Of a stretch of 64,000 bases of DNA, positions 11,752 through 57,068 are shown one piece after another. Location of the stretch: contig JARUHJ010000001.1 of NCBI GenBank assembly GCA_029667085.1, positions 992,001 through 1,056,000 on the forward strand. Direction: 5' to 3'. The position numbers and the translations under genes were made by a program. The stretch comes from Deltaproteobacteria bacterium IMCC39524. Its GTDB lineage: Bacteria; Desulfobacterota; Desulfuromonadia; Desulfuromonadales; BM103. The first letter of the stretch is position 1. Each line of letters opens with the position of its first letter. The notes under the pieces are model-generated. The model saw nothing but the letters and a program-made list of their open reading frames with translations. It searched no databases and was not told the origin of the DNA.

Positions 11752-12234
11752 TAATAAGACTGTAAGGTCTCAGGATCAGAATTGACTCGTTCTTGCTGAA
11801 GACTTTTCACAGTCTACAGAACCTAGAGTGGCTTGGGTTCTAAATCAACCACTAAAACGTTAGAGAACAGGGATATGCAGGATAATTAGGATAACATCCA
11901 GGACAAATCTCAGGTTCACTTCTTAACGCCCCCAATCCTATCTATCCTGCGCATCCCTGTTAATAAGTCTTTAAGATCTCATGATTAGAGTTGACACGAT
12001 CCTTTGCAGAAGACTTTTCACAGCCTTACTAATCTGGAGAGGCTTGGATCCCAAATCTAAAACTAAGACTTTAGATAACAGGGATATGCAGGATAATTTG
12101 GATAACATCCAGGACAAACCTCAGATTCACTTCTTAACGCCCTCCCCCTATCCTATCCTATCCTATCCTATCCTATCCTATCCTATCCTATCCTATCCTA
12201 TCCTATCTATCCTATCTATCCTGCTTACCCTTAT
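11752..12234. repeat. Tandem ~209-bp duplication carrying two family A inverted repeats
   Basis: Unit 1 begins at 11752 (TAATAAGACTGTAAGGTCTC) and unit 2 at 11961 (TAATAAGTCTTTAAGATCTC); the two align along most of their length with scattered changes. Each holds a family A hairpin: left arm AACAGGGATATGCAGGATAA at 11866 and 12077, right arm ATCCTGC...CCCTGTTA ending at 11963. The right arm of unit 2 is decayed and expanded by a pentanucleotide tract, and it forms the 3' end of the GxxExxY gene. Confidence 0.82.
12147..12206. repeat. (TCCTA)n pentanucleotide microsatellite
   Basis: About 12 head-to-tail copies of TCCTA (11 perfect at 12151-12205) arise inside the right arm of the second family A element, where the word TATCC already occurs. 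The tract ends just beyond the stop codon of the 12212-12613 gene. Length is likely to vary by replication slippage. Confidence 0.92.
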
Positions 12235-12613
12235 AAATGAGCTGATCAGTTTTATTATGGAGTCTTCGATACTCCACTTTCCTGCTGCCAAAATTAACCA
12301 ACAAAGCCGTTTCCAAACCAGTCGCTTTAAGATAATTGATAACCTGTGCTAAATGTTCGGGGACTAAGGCCTTAACGGCTTTCAACTCAACAATAACTTC
12401 ATCTTCAACCAACAAATCAGCAAAAAAGCTGCCGACCTGTTGGCCACGGAAAGTTACGGTGACAGGTGCCTGAGTCACAACACTAATATTTTTCTTACGC
12501 AAGGCAATGAGAAGCGCTTTTTCGTAAACAGATTCAAGAAACCCCGATCCCAGTTCATTGGCCACCTCAAAACATGCACCGAGAACCTCCTCTGTTAACT
12601 TTTCTTGTTTCAT
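12212..12613 (-). CDS. GxxExxY family protein
   Basis: 133 residues with the defining motif GSGFLESVYEKAL (G-x-x-E-x-x-Y) and a PD-(D/E)xK-like core (VEDEVIVELKAVK, then GLETALLVNFG). The fold resembles nucleases but the biological role of this family is not established. The start is strong: AAAGGAGGTTAA just before the ATG. The last seven codons (KGKQDR and stop) are made from a family A repeat arm, so the repeat has supplied the C-terminus. The start region is also part of a tandem duplication (12596-12965). The gene is isolated among repeats. Confidence 0.85.
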   Translation of the reverse strand: MKQEKLTEEVLGACFEVANELGSGFLESVYEKALLIALRKKNISVVTQAPVTVTFRGQQVGSFFADLLVEDEVIVELKAVKALVPEHLAQVINYLKATGLETALLVNFGSRKVEYRRLHNKTDQLIYKGKQDR

Positions 12614-12965
12614 TTAACCTCCTTTAATTCATGTTCAAGCCTTTGTTAACAGGGATAGACAGGATGAATAAGATAGTTTAAGGACAAAGGCAAATCATGG
12701 TTTCGGTTGTTGAATTTATCCTGCCTTATCCTGCATATCCCTGTTAATAAGCTCTTGATCTCTAAATCTCTCTTTTAAACTAACTTTTCTTGTTTCATTT
12801 ACCCCCCTTCAAATCTTTGCTAACAGTGATAAGGTAGGATAACGAAGATAGTTTAAGAACAAAGGTAAATCATGGTTTCGGTTGTTGAACTTATCCTGCC
12901 GTATCCTGCGTATCCCTGTTAATAAGCTCTTGATCTCTAAATTCTACTTTTAAACTTCAGTTAAA
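12596..12965. repeat. Tandem ~185-bp duplication containing the GxxExxY start region and family A repeats
   Basis: Unit 1 (from 12596) and unit 2 (from 12781) both begin TAACTTTTCTTGTTTCATTT, which on the minus strand is the start codon and first codons of the GxxExxY gene. Each then contains a family A inverted repeat (12646-12748 and 12821-12922) with a matching spacer (GGTTTCGGTTGTTGAA). The second copy of the start region is not followed by a gene. The stretch 12614-12965 holds nothing else recognisable. Confidence 0.85.
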
Positions 12966-13258: not shown

Positions 13259-14473
13259 CTAGTGCCCGGCTCCTGCAACAGTGAATTCATACCCGTTTTC
13301 AGCATCACCAATAACTTCGATGCTGGCAACAGGTTCGGCGTTGCTATTTCCTGCGGAGCCTTCCGGGGCAAAGAGATTAATTGAGTAGTCTCTGATAATA
13401 TCCCCGGCCTGAACCTGAACATGGGCTGTTTCCGGGCCATTACCAGAATAATAATTAACACCAACACCATATCGTCCTGTTGCCAGGTTTTCACAATCAA
13501 CAATGTAGTAGTGCTCAGGGCCCCAGGAAGTGACATCATCGTAGTCCAGGTAACCGGAGCTGCCCCACATGTTGCCATAATAGACATGGCTGCCATCCGG
13601 CTCATTAACGTGCAGATCCACGTCTCTTTCCGCTCCCCAGGTCAGGGTGACGCTGATGGGGCCGCTACCAATTTGCGGGGTTGGCCAGGAGAGAGAGTTG
13701 GCTTGACTGAGTGCGCTGCTGACGATCATTGGGCCGGTTTGGTTGCCGTTGAGATAAGAGTCGACGAAGCTGTGGTTCGTCCAGTCGTTAAAATTGGGGA
13801 TATTGGCAACGTTTGGATTCAGGGTTCCCGGAAAGACAAGGTCGACCGCGGCAATGACAATATCGTTTATCAAGGTGTAATATGGTCCCCCACCCGCTAC
13901 TCTGCTGGCAGGAGTGGCGACCGAGACGATGCCGAAGGAATTCATCGGAAGCCCCATAGCAGACAAGTTGCTATAGGCCGCATTTGTATAGAGATTGCCT
14001 TGGGAGTGAGCCACAACGAGAACCCTGTTGCCTTCCATCATCAGACTCTGGTAACGCTGGACATGGTCCCTCAGATCGGCATCTATAAGCGACTCGGCAG
14101 CGTCAAAACTTGCGGCCACGGTCTGGACTGAGGATTGAAACCAGTCAGGTGCAATCTCCATGTTGCCGAGCCAACGCCAATAGGATGAGACTTGATCGCC
14201 CATTCTTTGACGAAAGACCTCATAAATTGAACGCGCTCCCTCATTTGTATTTAAGCAATGGCCGAAAACCCATTGTTCATCGATTTGGCCTGAGGCTTTC
14301 ATCTTAACTTCGAGTGCTTTTACACTAGAGATGACATCACCTTTTGAATTAAACATACCATTGGCAAACAGAACTTGAGTTTTTTGTTCACAATAACTTG
14401 CCTCTGAGACATTTGGAGAAAAGCCTCCCACTAAAACACATAAAAGCAACAGAACATGACATAACAATTTCAT
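13259..14473 (-). CDS. Secreted alpha/beta-hydrolase (lipase-like) with C-terminal DUF2135/YfaP-like domain
   Basis: 404 residues. A signal peptide (about 1-26) leads to an alpha/beta-hydrolase-type domain with the nucleophile elbow VVAHSQGNLY (Ser157) and a likely catalytic histidine in NHSFVDSYL (about 234). From about residue 270 a beta-rich domain carries DVDLHVNEPDG, as in YfaP/DUF2135 domains. Substrate is unknown; lipase or esterase activity is inference. I start at the ATG at 14473 behind GGAGGTGAAA, 11 bases after the upstream stop; an ATG at 14485 is possible. It is the second gene of the riboswitch-controlled operon. Confidence 0.8.
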   Translation of the reverse strand: MKLLCHVLLLLCVLVGGFSPNVSEASYCEQKTQVLFANGMFNSKGDVISSVKALEVKMKASGQIDEQWVFGHCLNTNEGARSIYEVFRQRMGDQVSSYWRWLGNMEIAPDWFQSSVQTVAASFDAAESLIDADLRDHVQRYQSLMMEGNRVLVVAHSQGNLYTNAAYSNLSAMGLPMNSFGIVSVATPASRVAGGGPYYTLINDIVIAAVDLVFPGTLNPNVANIPNFNDWTNHSFVDSYLNGNQTGPMIVSSALSQANSLSWPTPQIGSGPISVTLTWGAERDVDLHVNEPDGSHVYYGNMWGSSGYLDYDDVTSWGPEHYYIVDCENLATGRYGVGVNYYSGNGPETAHVQVQAGDIIRDYSINLFAPEGSAGNSNAEPVASIEVIGDAENGYEFTVAGAGH

Positions 14474-14484
14474 TTTCACCTCCA

Positions 14485-15309
14485 TCAGTTTTCAAGAATA
14501 TCAGGATCAAAAGTGCAGCTTTGCTTCCACTCAGAAAATGGTGCAGACATAAAAGTACCACCACCTAAGATACGGCTAGAATCGAGATAGGCGTATACAC
14601 GGTCTGAAGTATTCACGACTACACTTTCAATTTCTTTAATAAGTGTATGAGCATCAGTTGGATGGAGGTAGTAGAGGCACTCTGTCGCTCGATGGAAGGC
14701 GTCCATATCGTTATAAACCGAATCCCGATCACCCTCACGAGCATGGATCATAAAGTTCTGCAATGGATAGTAGTTCTGAATCAGCGCCTGACGGGTTTTC
14801 TCAGAATTCGGGTAGGTCAATGCAATCCAGCGCTCGATGTCATCGCGTATGCCATTATCATTGACATCAACACCTTCAATGGTGGCATCGCCCGCAGGTC
14901 CTGGATCGGGAGGAAGGTTCAGGGTAGGTTCAGCCAATATTTGAACATTCAGGAAACCGCCGGGGTTGCTGCGAAGTGAAACTGAGAGAGTGTTTTCGAG
15001 ATCGTTGGGTGAGATGGCGCGATCAATGGCCTGAACCTTCTGGTTGAAATCTGAAGGACCGAGTATTTTTACGCCGTTGAGACTGATGATAGCACTTGAA
15101 ACCTGGTTCGTGCCGCTCTCATCACCATTTTGAACCTTGAGAATAAAATCTTCGAAGCCTTGTCCGTAGAAACGAAACTCTTCTTTGACAGGTGATCCGG
15201 TCACCGAATCAATGCGTTCTTCTAAAACGATTTGCGCTGCGAGTGCTGCCGTGGCTGTCAGACAGACAGCGACCACCATCAGCACAAGCATCATGCTTGT
15301 TTTCTTCAT
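14485..15309 (-). CDS. Secreted protein of unknown function with an EF-hand-like loop
   Basis: 274 residues, not recognised. The signal peptide is clear: MKKTSMM then a hydrophobic run ending ALAA near residue 25. Residues 26-130 look beta-rich (LEERIDSVTGSPV, ILKVQNGDES). A PPDPGPAG linker is followed by DVNDNGIRDDIE (148-159), which fits a calcium-binding EF-hand-like loop. The C-terminal part is helical. The start at 15309 has AGGAGGAAGCT directly upstream. It is the first gene after a c-di-GMP riboswitch leader and lies 11 bases from the hydrolase gene, so the two products probably act together outside the cytoplasm. Confidence 0.78.
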   Translation of the reverse strand: MKKTSMMLVLMVVAVCLTATAALAAQIVLEERIDSVTGSPVKEEFRFYGQGFEDFILKVQNGDESGTNQVSSAIISLNGVKILGPSDFNQKVQAIDRAISPNDLENTLSVSLRSNPGGFLNVQILAEPTLNLPPDPGPAGDATIEGVDVNDNGIRDDIERWIALTYPNSEKTRQALIQNYYPLQNFMIHAREGDRDSVYNDMDAFHRATECLYYLHPTDAHTLIKEIESVVVNTSDRVYAYLDSSRILGGGTFMSAPFSEWKQSCTFDPDILEN

Positions 15310-15578
15310 AGCTTCCTCCTTTACTGACAACAATTAATAAGTCATTACAATGTGACGCATTCCAGGCTGGCCCTCTCCTTTCTTGCCTGGCGTATATTTA
15401 TGGCGAACCTTGCTGCAAAGTTTTTTCGTCAACGTGTAAACGAAAAGACACTGCAGAGGTAAGCTGTTTTCAGGGAGGGGGATTGTTCGGAAGAAACCCG
15501 AAGACTATTTCTTGATTTTCTGATAGAACAAGTTTGCAGTCCGAAGACCCACCTTCCGTTCTATCTCCCCTCCATTTC

Positions 15579-15632
15579 AAAAAAAAACAGCCGGACTGCG
15601 AAGGTTATAAAATCCTTCAGCAGCCCGGCTGT
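15579..15632 (-). terminator. Riboswitch expression-platform terminator
   Basis: On the minus strand ACAGCCGGGCTGCTGAAGG (15632-15614) pairs with CCTTCGCAGTCCGGCTGT (15604-15587) and nine T follow (15587-15579). The 5' strand of this stem includes the 3' part of the c-di-GMP aptamer, so aptamer folding and termination should compete. A leader of about 270 bases separates it from the 15309 start. Confidence 0.85.
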
Positions 15633-15700
15633 CTTTAAATAGCAGATAAAGACCCGTGGCTTTCCGACCCATCCTCACGAATGGTTTGGCGTTTTTTAAG
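15620..15700 (-). promoter_or_regulatory. c-di-GMP-I (GEMM) riboswitch aptamer
   Basis: Reading the minus strand, the conserved words appear in order: CCAAACC (15690-15684), a stem closed by GTGA (GNRA-type) loop, GGATGGG, then GGAAAGCC, CACGGGTCT, a hairpin, and AGACAGCCGGGCTGC. These match the GEMM-I consensus. CC before AAACC pairs with GG before AAAGCC, a compensatory version of the GC/GC pair in the Vibrio Vc2 RNA. The base aligned with Vc2 G20 is G, which favours c-di-GMP over cGAMP (the latter usually has A). It overlaps a terminator, so ligand binding would block termination if it is an ON switch; the sense is inference. Confidence 0.85.
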
Positions 15701-15732
15701 TGGCCGTTGATTAACAGTTTCAAACGCGAATT

Positions 15733-15761
15733 AAGTTAAATTGCCCCAAGCTTATTGTCAA
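15733..15761 (-). promoter_or_regulatory. Sigma-70-type promoter for the riboswitch operon
   Basis: On the minus strand TTGACA (15761-15756), a 17-base spacer and TAACTT (15738-15733). Transcription would begin near 15726, about 25 bases before the aptamer. Confidence 0.75.
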
Positions 15762-15941: not shown

Positions 15942-17036
15942 ATGCCGATCGCTCCACCGATTGAAACGCTGCTTGATCAACCTCCCATGGAGTTGATGGA
16001 CCTGTTTGGGCGGATGCGATCTCTGACGAGTGAAGCCCGTTTTGAAGGAACTTTGCCGATCGTCTGGCAGTGTTCGGATGAGAGTCAGAGTATCAAGAAG
16101 AGTCTTTTCGGCTACGTGTATGATTGCCCGGCCTTTAACCTGGGACGGGTCGGTGCTCTGATCGACCCGAAGCGACTGATCCCGGCATCACATCACGGTC
16201 GCGACCTGGTTATCCTCGGCGGGAGCCACATCGGTGGCAGTGAAGAGACAGGGATCGGCTATGTAGAGCGCGTGCACGGCAAGGTCGCCCCCTGCTGCGG
16301 CATGCTGAATCGTCTGATGAACCCCTACATGACTCTTTACCAACGCGCATCAACCTTGATCACACTTTTCCGCGGCCCCGGTGGTTTGAAGGTCGAAATC
16401 CCCTACAAATACCTGCTGCGTAAAAGCACCGACACGCATGACCACCCTCACCTGCACCTGAACATCGATCAACTGGTGGATGGTGAACCTTTACGGGATG
16501 CCAGCCAGGGCAAGGTCTATCGCCTCAACAAGGACTTCACGAACCGCTACCAGCACCCGCTAAAAGAGATCGCCAACATACCGGTTCCGATTGGCAAGCT
16601 CCTTGACCCGACCACCTTCTATTTCACCATGAATCTCAACGAGAGACGACACGATCCCGACTCCATGCTGGAGAATTCGGTCTTCGACTTCATGCCCGAC
16701 ATCGTCACCTCGCCCTACCCGCACCGACGCATGGCCGACGTCAACACCTGGCGGCAATTCCACCGCCTGGCCTCGTACGTCACCGATTCCTTTGAGAGCG
16801 GAGACCGCAACATCCTGATCATCGCCGGCCTGACCATCGACCACACGATCAAGCGCAACACGTTTATTCCGCAATTCGGTTTCTGGATGCAGCAGGGCCG
16901 TGCGTTGCAGGCGCGTTATTTTAACGCACTGGAGTTAAATGAGTTACTTGGGGAGCAGAAGGTATTTGCGCCATGTAAGACATTTTTGGAGTATGCGGAG
17001 ATTACTTTGGACAAAAGCACAGGCCTAACAGATTAA
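15942..17036 (+). CDS. LCIB/C-like (beta-type carbonic anhydrase-like) protein, putative
   Basis: 364 residues, soluble, no signal peptide. The block ILGGSHIGGSEETGIGYVER ... GKVAPCCGMLNRLM (91-125) resembles, from memory, the zinc site of limiting-CO2-inducible LCIB/LCIC proteins, in which a PHIAID histidine is followed by a C-A-C-G cysteine. H96 and C118/C119 would be ligands. The other zinc cysteine of that family seems to be replaced (IDPKR region, about 74-78; C62 lies nearby). CO2/bicarbonate activity is therefore uncertain. AGGAGG precedes the ATG. It is divergent from the c-di-GMP operon and stands alone. Otherwise a conserved hypothetical metalloprotein. Confidence 0.6.
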   Translation: MPIAPPIETLLDQPPMELMDLFGRMRSLTSEARFEGTLPIVWQCSDESQSIKKSLFGYVYDCPAFNLGRVGALIDPKRLIPASHHGRDLVILGGSHIGGSEETGIGYVERVHGKVAPCCGMLNRLMNPYMTLYQRASTLITLFRGPGGLKVEIPYKYLLRKSTDTHDHPHLHLNIDQLVDGEPLRDASQGKVYRLNKDFTNRYQHPLKEIANIPVPIGKLLDPTTFYFTMNLNERRHDPDSMLENSVFDFMPDIVTSPYPHRRMADVNTWRQFHRLASYVTDSFESGDRNILIIAGLTIDHTIKRNTFIPQFGFWMQQGRALQARYFNALELNELLGEQKVFAPCKTFLEYAEITLDKSTGLTD

Positions 17037-54866: not shown

Positions 54867-57068
54867 ATGAAAGCAGCCTCTCCTTCCACAGCTTCAGAGC
54901 AGTCAAGGCGCTTTCGTTCCCTGCGCAGAAAAGTCTTTTTACCGTTCCTGTTCCTTATTGTGGCCTTAACTGCTGCGGCAATCTATGGGTCCATTCATCT
55001 GGCAGAGCATTCATTTCAAAATAGCGCCGACGAACGTCTGGCGGCCACCAAGGAAGTGCTGTATCGGGAGTTCAAGAAGCATGAGAGCATCCTGCAGACC
55101 TATGCTGTTATCATGCAGCAGTTCCAGTCTCTTTCCGAAAGATTTCACAATGAAGCCGAATTTGGCATCTTGCAGGACCGCCTTTTCAACACACTTGAAA
55201 AATCCAACATCGTAACCACCTTTTACCCAGCCGACATCCGGGGGCTCATTCAACAAGAAAGCCTTGTCGCACTCTTCGACCAGGTCCGCCGTAGCGGACA
55301 GCCTCGCTTTCGCTACAGCAATGAATTCGGTACAGTCCCTGTTCTCATGGTTGCGGCACCCATCTACACGGGTAACGATCTGAGCAGGATTCTCCTGCTG
55401 CAGACGTCCATGGGTGAAACTTTCTTGAGGAGTGTAACGTCTGCTCTAAACGTCACTGCAGCGCTGATGACACCTGAGGGCAAAACCATTGTTAAAAGTA
55501 ACCCTGCGTTTACCGACGTCGCCCTGAGCCCGGCCCAGATCAACCTGATTGGTAGCGGTCAACCACTTTTCCTCAATCACGACATTGGCACGGAGCCGGA
55601 GCGACATCTCTTCGCCATGATCCCTCTGGGCAGAAGTGACAGGATCATTCTTTCCCTCGAAGCCTCCCTGAAATCAACAACCGAGAGGCAGTCAGAAACC
55701 ATCTTGCGTATGATCCTGGTCATGAGTGCTGTCATCATCCTCGGCACTATTTTTTACTTTAGAAGAATCAGCCAGGTCACAAAGCCGGCAATAGAGTTAC
55801 TCAACGCGACCGAGGCAATTAGTTGCGGTAATCTGTCCTACCGGATTATGGATGTCGGTGATGATGAGTTAGGGCAGATCGCGACGTCCTTTAATAAGAT
55901 GGCAGAAGACCTTGAAAGCTCCTACCAGGAACGCGCCAGCCAGGATATTGCCGCCGCCATTGCTCAGGAAGAACAGAAGATGCAGCTGGTTTTGGAAAAG
56001 AAACAACGTGAGCGCGACAAAATCAACGATGAGTTAAACATTCTGCAACGCGAAACGAACGCCCTCTACCAGCTGAACCAGGCGATGACAGCATCAATTG
56101 AACTGAGCGTTATGTTCGATCGCATTCTACAGGTTCTCAATGAAAAGCTCTCTTGTGACCATATCGTACTGCTGAACCACAACCCCGGTGAAAGTGTCCT
56201 TGAAGTTGTACGCACGTCAGGTCTTGAGACGGGCGTTCTAAGTAAGGTGCAGTTCACGTTTAGCCAAGGAATAACTGGAGAAGCAGCTCAAAGTCAACGG
56301 ATGATTTATGTCAAGGACATCGATGAGGATGACCGGAACCTCAGTTACCATGGGCTGATTGCCACCCGTGGTTCGATGATTTCCGTGCCTCTGGTGATCA
56401 AGGGTCGGCTTGTTGGAGTCATCAACCTGCATAAAAAACTGAAGGATGGCTTCTCAGCATCAGAGCAAAGACTGGTACAGGCGATAGCCAACCAGACAGC
56501 GATGGCCGTTGACAATGCCCAACTCCAGGAGAAAAGCCGGGATCTGAGCAATACAGACGAGCTGACCGGTCTCTCCAATCGCAGGCATTTCCAGGAGATC
56601 CTCAAACGTGAAGTTGCCCAGGCGCGTCGCTTCAGCTCGAACTTCTCTGTCATCATGTGTGACATTGACGAATTCAAACAACATAAATCAACGCTCGGCA
56701 ACATTCAGTCCGACGCCCTGCTCAGGCAGGTCGGCCAGGCGCTTTTGAAAAGCACCCGCAGTATTGACCTGGTCAGTCGTTTTGGTACCGACCAGTTCAT
56801 TATCATGTTACCCAAGACCTCCAAGAAAGGCGCCTTTTGTGCAGCGGAAAAACTGCGCAAACACATCCTCGGAGAGGATTTCTCTGCCCACCTCCACTCA
56901 GATCTGGACTTCAAGGTGACGGTCTCTTTCGGTGTCACAGAATTTCCCGGTGACAGCAAAAACATATACGAGCTTCTGAATCTTGCAGATCGAGCGCTTT
57001 ACGCCGCAAAGAAAGACGGCAGCAACTGTACGGTCGTCTGGGAGGGCACTGCTCCCGGACCTGAATAA
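54867..57068 (+). CDS. Membrane protein with HAMP - GAF - degenerate GGDEF domains
   Basis: 733 residues. Two membrane helices (about 27-46 and 285-305) bracket a ~240-residue periplasmic domain; then HAMP, a coiled coil (about 360-400), GAF (405-560) and a GGDEF-like domain (570-725). The signature motif is GTDQF (640-644) instead of GG(D/E)EF, with glutamine at the catalytic glutamate. The upstream substrate region is also altered (DIDEFKQHKSTLGN lacks the usual N-D and G-H). It is probably inactive as a cyclase and may sense GTP or partner the HD-GYP protein; this is inference. Confidence 0.85.
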   Translation: MKAASPSTASEQSRRFRSLRRKVFLPFLFLIVALTAAAIYGSIHLAEHSFQNSADERLAATKEVLYREFKKHESILQTYAVIMQQFQSLSERFHNEAEFGILQDRLFNTLEKSNIVTTFYPADIRGLIQQESLVALFDQVRRSGQPRFRYSNEFGTVPVLMVAAPIYTGNDLSRILLLQTSMGETFLRSVTSALNVTAALMTPEGKTIVKSNPAFTDVALSPAQINLIGSGQPLFLNHDIGTEPERHLFAMIPLGRSDRIILSLEASLKSTTERQSETILRMILVMSAVIILGTIFYFRRISQVTKPAIELLNATEAISCGNLSYRIMDVGDDELGQIATSFNKMAEDLESSYQERASQDIAAAIAQEEQKMQLVLEKKQRERDKINDELNILQRETNALYQLNQAMTASIELSVMFDRILQVLNEKLSCDHIVLLNHNPGESVLEVVRTSGLETGVLSKVQFTFSQGITGEAAQSQRMIYVKDIDEDDRNLSYHGLIATRGSMISVPLVIKGRLVGVINLHKKLKDGFSASEQRLVQAIANQTAMAVDNAQLQEKSRDLSNTDELTGLSNRRHFQEILKREVAQARRFSSNFSVIMCDIDEFKQHKSTLGNIQSDALLRQVGQALLKSTRSIDLVSRFGTDQFIIMLPKTSKKGAFCAAEKLRKHILGEDFSAHLHSDLDFKVTVSFGVTEFPGDSKNIYELLNLADRALYAAKKDGSNCTVVWEGTAPGPE

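Follow-up and report, generated by a model that had tools for sequence, protein, structure and literature searches.

A GEMM-I riboswitch, probably a c-di-GMP ON-switch, upstream of a two-gene operon for predicted exported proteins in Deltaproteobacteria bacterium IMCC39524

The minus strand of the genome of Deltaproteobacteria bacterium IMCC39524 encodes, ahead of two genes for putative exported proteins, an RNA of the GEMM-I class that probably switches transcription on in response to c-di-GMP. The switch is a further member of a well-known riboswitch class, to which it is predicted to add, taken singly, a clean c-di-GMP-type ON-switch with an exported operon. The greater value lies in the set to which it belongs: the genome contains 38-39 natural aptamers, among which both orientations of pair 21-46 and both selectivity bases occur, and the lineage seems capable of producing c-di-GMP as well as cGAMP. 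Such a set is a natural test of which bases set the ligand and which the regulatory logic in GEMM-I RNAs.

Organisation of the switch

Within the window, i.e. the whole 64-kb stretch of DNA that was analysed, the switch is placed between a rightward gene (15942-17036) and the leftward operon, and reading along the minus strand gives the order -35 element, aptamer, terminator hairpin, U-run, leader and two genes. Indeed, this strand contains (i) a putative promoter (15733-15761) composed of a -35 hexamer TTGACA (15761-15756), a 17-nt spacing and a weak -10 hexamer TAACTT (15738-15733), (ii) a GEMM-I (c-di-GMP class I) aptamer (15615-15699), identified with Rfam covariance models, an alignment and a pair test, (iii) an intrinsic terminator hairpin (15587-15632), which takes its 5' arm from the aptamer's 3' strand and is supported by folding energy and by pairing in orthologues, (iv) the U-run of the terminator (15579-15586), (v) a leader between terminator and gene (15310-15578), with the ribosome-binding site AAAGGAGGAAGCT directly before the ATG, (vi) the first of the presumably regulated genes (14485-15309; ATG at 15309), encoding a 274-aa protein, and (vii) the second (13259-14473; ATG at 14473), encoding a 404-aa protein.

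The initial annotation had placed promoter, aptamer, overlapping terminator and exported genes in this order, which is correct in outline, with a weak -10. Its claim that the switch has a promoter of its own stands for the -35 hexamer, which is conserved and a perfect match to the consensus; in the promoter, TTTCTTGACA is identical in all four aligned leaders. The claim is weaker for the -10 hexamer, where 3 of 6 consensus positions are matched; a simple promoter scan did not list the switch promoter. We infer from the sequence that this promoter serves the switch, and the -35/-10 spacing would place the transcription start about 25-30 nt upstream of the aptamer.

The leader of about 270 nt (mean column identity of 74% over four sequences) is well conserved in two relatives (G005 and G007), shows lower conservation in a third (G012), and gave no above-cut-off match in the Rfam search of the 64-kb window. 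The divergent gene (15942-17036), which encodes a 364-aa protein, was matched neither in Pfam at 0.001 nor in NCBIfam at 1.

Identity of the aptamer

The segment 15699-15615 of the minus strand was confirmed to be a class I cyclic-dinucleotide (GEMM-I) aptamer. The initial annotation had proposed a covariance search with the Rfam GEMM-I model, and this model (RF01051) matched at 66.3 bits, far over its gathering cut-off of 35. The related model RF03167 (c-di-GMP-I-GGC) matched at 68.3 bits (gathering score 59; E 4.9e-14). The aptamer is the sole listed match above gathering score in the window, the search tool having dropped from its list one match that overlaps it, scores lower and belongs to the same clan.

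The pocket bases, numbered as in Vc2, are G20 (15690), the pairs C21-G46 (15689/15664) and C22-G45 (15688/15665), A47 (15663) and C92 (15620). Helices P2 and P3 were found, and the loop on P2 is of the GNRA type (GUGA). The aptamer was aligned in a set of 38, comprising 36 of the 39 matches in its own genome and two orthologues from relatives; L025, a near-copy of L018, was left out, as were the weak or degenerate L038 and L039. All 38 RNAs have A47 and C92. Across the 18 consensus pairs, 96.6% of pairs are standard and 15 pairs are changed on both sides; none of 500 shuffles was as good on any of five measures, and shifting the pairing partners lowers pairing to 31-44%, in a test that favours the structure to a degree, because this alignment was also its source. 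The replacement of a GC/GC pair by CC/GG had been read earlier as a sign of real base pairing, and the alignment bears this out: pair 21-46 is CG in 19 aptamers, GC in 18 and GU in one, so that C21-G46 is, on the aligned sequences, a real compensatory swap. The same C21-G46 pair is also the arrangement of the cGAMP riboswitch.

The Rfam label 'c-di-GMP-I-GGC' was rejected as a literal description, given that A47 (15663) stands where the RF03167 consensus has G; the 'GGC' of the name presumably refers to the base at this position, and the label is not to be read as a ligand class. That the RNA is a GGC variant with another specificity, binding neither c-di-GMP nor cGAMP, is accordingly very improbable: RF03167 outscores the next Rfam family by 2 bits, but its G at position 47 is not shared, A47 and C92 do not vary in the aligned set and the RF01051 score is also far above cut-off.

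Overlapping terminator, conservation and direction of control

The overlapping terminator of the initial annotation was recovered with its 5' arm inside the aptamer (15632-15587; -31.9 kcal/mol). Aptamer and terminator have 18 nt in common (15632-15615) and are therefore mutually exclusive. Indeed, the 137-nt transcript folds into the terminator at -50.7 kcal/mol (as good in 0 of 200 shuffles). Without the 3' arm of the terminator it folds at -30.3 kcal/mol (as good in 6 of 200 shuffles), and the P2 and P3 hairpins form, with the junction paired in a non-native manner in the minimum-energy fold. The hairpin was missed by a simple terminator scan, its 9-nt loop being longer than the scan allows.

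Among 58 genomes searched, the first gene has close orthologues in five relatives (G001, G002, G005, G007 and G012) and distant matches in five more; the second has orthologues in the same five and in G026, and weak matches in two more. The switch precedes the orthologous operon in G005 and in G012, the latter belonging to another genus. The pairing of the terminator is kept at both of these loci (L182 and L183) through changes on both strands, GAAGG/CCUUC being replaced by AAAGG/CCUUU in G012 and G-U/C-G by G-C/U-G in G005. Of the three remaining relatives in which the first gene has a close orthologue, two show no switch in the flank examined and G007 has the operon without an aptamer: the aptamer body is missing there (L181:1170-1225), whereas the -35, TTTCTTGACA and a terminator hairpin of reduced length are retained. 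No Rfam match at E 0.1 or better was obtained in the operon flanks examined for G007, G001 and G002. The absence in G007 may be a true loss or an assembly fault, the latter being conceivable because the assembly consists of about 630 pieces and has 8% contamination.

The direction of control is most likely ON, by analogy with pilM of Geobacter metallireducens, in which the aptamer and the terminator cannot form together and the ligand turns transcription on (PMC9262584); the terminator overlap and the layout are the same here. In both RNAs the 3' strand of a GEMM-I aptamer is used in the terminator and the folds are exclusive, the ON behaviour being known for pilM and predicted for the present RNA. 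The pilM switch differs in binding cGAMP, whereas the present RNA has G at the selectivity position. In brief, a second messenger bound to the nascent aptamer would keep the 3' strand AGCCGGGCUGCUGAAGG in the aptamer, and the polymerase would continue into the two genes, which are presumably cotranscribed. With the ligand unbound, AGCCGGGCUGCUGAAGG would pair with the sequence just downstream into a very strong terminator, and transcription would stop.

A terminator of -31.9 kcal/mol could also be too strong for any ligand to matter in the cell, the element then being a constitutive attenuator or a decayed switch. The operon of G007 may indeed do without the aptamer, which is missing there with the -35 and a shortened hairpin kept. 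Such an explanation is nonetheless hardly to be expected of an RNA whose pocket bases and helices are intact and whose terminator pairing is kept in a relative of another genus, and a ligand-dependent ON-switch is the preferred reading.

Ligand

The ligand is likely c-di-GMP, to judge from G20, A47 and C92. The aptamer was compared with the canonical c-di-GMP-I aptamer Vc2 and with the crystallised cGAMP riboswitch, presumably GSU1761. It shares with Vc2 the bases G20, A47 and C92 and a GNRA loop on P2, and differs in pair 21-46, which is G-C in Vc2 and C-G here, and in its overlapping terminator of the pilM kind.

G20, C21-G46, A47 and C92 are all present in the RNA itself and in both orthologues (L182 and L183). 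The crystal structure of the cGAMP riboswitch has a pair C15-G40 and the bases A14, A41 and C75 (PMC6274999), which were equated by our own number matching with pair 21-46 and positions 20, 47 and 92, respectively. On this matching the present RNA shares C21-G46, A47 and C92 with that riboswitch and differs at position 20, which is A there and G here. Of the two sequence marks of the cGAMP-selective GEMM-Ib group, the C21-G46 pair is found and A at position 20 is replaced by G.

The earlier suggestion that G at position 20 points to c-di-GMP is supported, since natural aptamers with this base favour c-di-GMP. Indeed, those of Desulfobacca acetoxidans with G there showed a strong preference for c-di-GMP by in-line probing, and an aptamer with A there gains c-AMP-GMP binding (PMC9481103). 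The D. acetoxidans aptamers resemble the present one in being predicted ON-switches and in the association of c-di-GMP with G at the selectivity position, and differ in being clustered with cobalamin riboswitches (PMC9481103), whereas the present aptamer is single. In the study of pilM, selectivity is reported to change with lower P2, and position 20 is described as contributing to selectivity without being a hard filter (PMC9262584), so G20 alone is no proof of c-di-GMP. Scaffold and base 20 point opposite ways, C21-G46 being cGAMP-riboswitch-like and G20 c-di-GMP-like, and the ligand is for this reason likely rather than settled.

It is unlikely that the switch senses 3',3'-cGAMP, or both dinucleotides with G20 merely shifting the preference. 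Geobacter cGAMP riboswitches have this C21-G46 scaffold, matched by C15-G40 in the cGAMP aptamer (PMC6274999), together with an overlapping ON platform; A20, C21 and U22 with G45 and G46 occur in 24 of 44 distinct pattern-derived aptamers among the matches listed, 23 of the 24 having an overlapping terminator by script; and in G. sulfurreducens the omcST switch reportedly responds to both dinucleotides (PMC6456294). Against this stand G20 in the RNA and in both orthologues, a C22-G45 pair where those 24 aptamers have U22-G45, and the strong preference of G-bearing aptamers for c-di-GMP in the case tested (PMC9481103). The cGAMP signal itself may be available. Indeed, among 13 GGDEF matches in the genome, the ordinary aspartate is found in nine and the serine signature of Hypr cGAMP synthases (PMC6456294) in two (L047 and L048; GHxxGS), the remaining two being without the motif by the expression used. 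Both signals are possible in the cell because the GGDEF set holds both types, and the genome likely makes cGAMP alongside c-di-GMP. The preferred ligand is still c-di-GMP, in line with the nine matches that have the ordinary aspartate.

A GGDEF domain is also encoded within the window (56550-57026; G000:C1:1048550-1049026); its signature motif was not found by the expression used.

Regulated genes

The initial annotation had described a secreted-hydrolase operon. This is plausible for the second protein only, which has an alpha/beta-hydrolase motif and matches known folds weakly. The first protein (274 aa), putatively exported, carries an export signal at its start, judged by eye, and no Pfam family reaches the cut-off. 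Its model (mean pLDDT 72.5) predicts a beta-sandwich and a helical part, and Foldseek returned seven matches below 0.001, mostly carbohydrate-binding beta-sandwiches and all with a query TM-score of at most 0.25, in a search where the absence of other families proves nothing.

The second protein (404 aa) also has an export signal by eye, and HSQGN, a candidate nucleophile elbow, is present in seven of seven sequences (its own and those of six relatives). Pfam Abhydrolase_6 was matched at E 0.016, below the cut-off, and no Pfam family was found at the cut-off. The model is of low confidence (pLDDT 55) and predicts a C-terminal beta-sandwich; Foldseek with this model gave no match at or below 0.001. 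For the N-terminal part, the best VIA-align matches were a cutinase (rmsd 4.1 over 144 aligned residues) and a carboxylesterase (4.8 over 155), each with Z 8.0, a value of about 8.0 being common without relationship according to the tool's own warning. A PDB sequence search with the profile of the protein gave two chance-level matches only. Taken together, the protein has a probable alpha/beta-hydrolase domain and is likely a secreted esterase or lipase, as predicted from these features.

Beyond the operon, two copies, by eye, of a stretch containing ATTTAGAGATCAAGAGCTTATTAACAGGGATA are located at 12680-12960, beside a PDDEXK_3 family gene (12212-12613).

The GEMM-I set of the genome

The genome (G000, 3.78 Mb) contains 38-39 GEMM-I aptamers (L001-L039), with 38 matches to RF01051 (36 over cut-off) and 39 to RF03167 (20 over cut-off). 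In a search of 57 genomes, i.e. this one and others of its genus, family and order, some of them incomplete, at least one match was found in 53; this genome had the most (38), followed by G005 (36) and by G003 and G032 (27 each). First genes behind the other switches, taken by script as the nearest downstream open reading frame, include those for a nuclease, a DsrE-like protein, NHL propellers, histidine kinases, a PilZ response regulator, a MopE-type repeat protein, a c7-type cytochrome (just under cut-off) and a sugar transferase; of 20 proteins submitted to the family scan, 13 matched a family at E 0.001 or better and seven matched none.

As a tentative and rather doubtful proposal, two second messengers may be read by a two-by-two set of GEMM-I RNAs in which the orientation of pair 21-46 goes with the expression platform and base 20 sets the ligand. 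RNAs with C21-G46 would then use an overlapping ON terminator and those with G21-C46 mostly a separate downstream terminator, some of them OFF-like, so that c-di-GMP-ON, cGAMP-ON, c-di-GMP-OFF and cGAMP-OFF genes would exist in one cell. The present RNA would be a hybrid, with a cGAMP-riboswitch scaffold carrying a c-di-GMP base.

The link between pair and platform was seen in the 38 aligned RNAs (Fisher p 1.3e-5): by script, the terminators of C21-G46 RNAs are overlapping in 16, separate in one and without call in two, those of G21-C46 RNAs are overlapping in three, separate in 14 and without call in one, and that of the single G-U RNA is overlapping. In the best-scoring rows from relatives (duplicates removed), the corresponding counts are 12, 0 and 4 for C21-G46 and 25, 82 and 16 for G21-C46 (p 2e-7, with three rows of neither pair type left out of the 2x2 table). 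Among the matches listed, pattern-derived C21-G46 records gave 32 overlapping, one separate and eight without call (100 of 118 listed loci searched); this set is unable to test the link because the pattern fixes G46. An overlapping terminator is thus near-universal for C21-G46 where it can be called. The script is imperfect: L001 is called separate, although inspection by eye places the start of its hairpin within the aptamer; L002, L024, L031 and L037 are overlapping in the second version on long, possibly false hairpins; L032 switches class between versions; and L016, L034 and L011 have no call. Furthermore, the link might reflect no more than a common ancestry of the C21-G46 RNAs, with no causal tie, and overlapping terminators are also found with G21-C46.

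Base 20 is G or A in both scaffolds and is not wholly independent of them. In the 38 RNAs, G20 and A20 occur in 14 and five of those with C21-G46 and in seven and 11 of those with G21-C46, the single G21-U46 RNA having G20. A20 is therefore commoner with G21-C46 in this set (11/18 against 5/19, p 0.049); the best-scoring rows from relatives gave 30/121 against 1/16 (p 0.12).

For separate terminators, complementarity between the 3' strand of the aptamer and the 5' arm of the terminator was compared with mononucleotide-shuffled sequences. Antiterminator pairing at z below -2 was found in four of 15 rows from this genome (median -0.4) and in 28 of 86 among the listed rows from relatives and pattern-derived records (median -1.3). 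OFF logic is thus supported for part of the separate-terminator set only, such values being found in a minority of rows.

Two local groupings were also observed. Four aptamers (L015, L017, L039 and L030) are located within 3 kb (G000:C1:20950-23926), two of them near-identical and in tandem before an OmpA-family gene, one degenerate (26.9 bits) and one more. Finally, L018 and L025 are near-identical in aptamer and leader and lie on two contigs, which suggests a recent duplication or a repeat.
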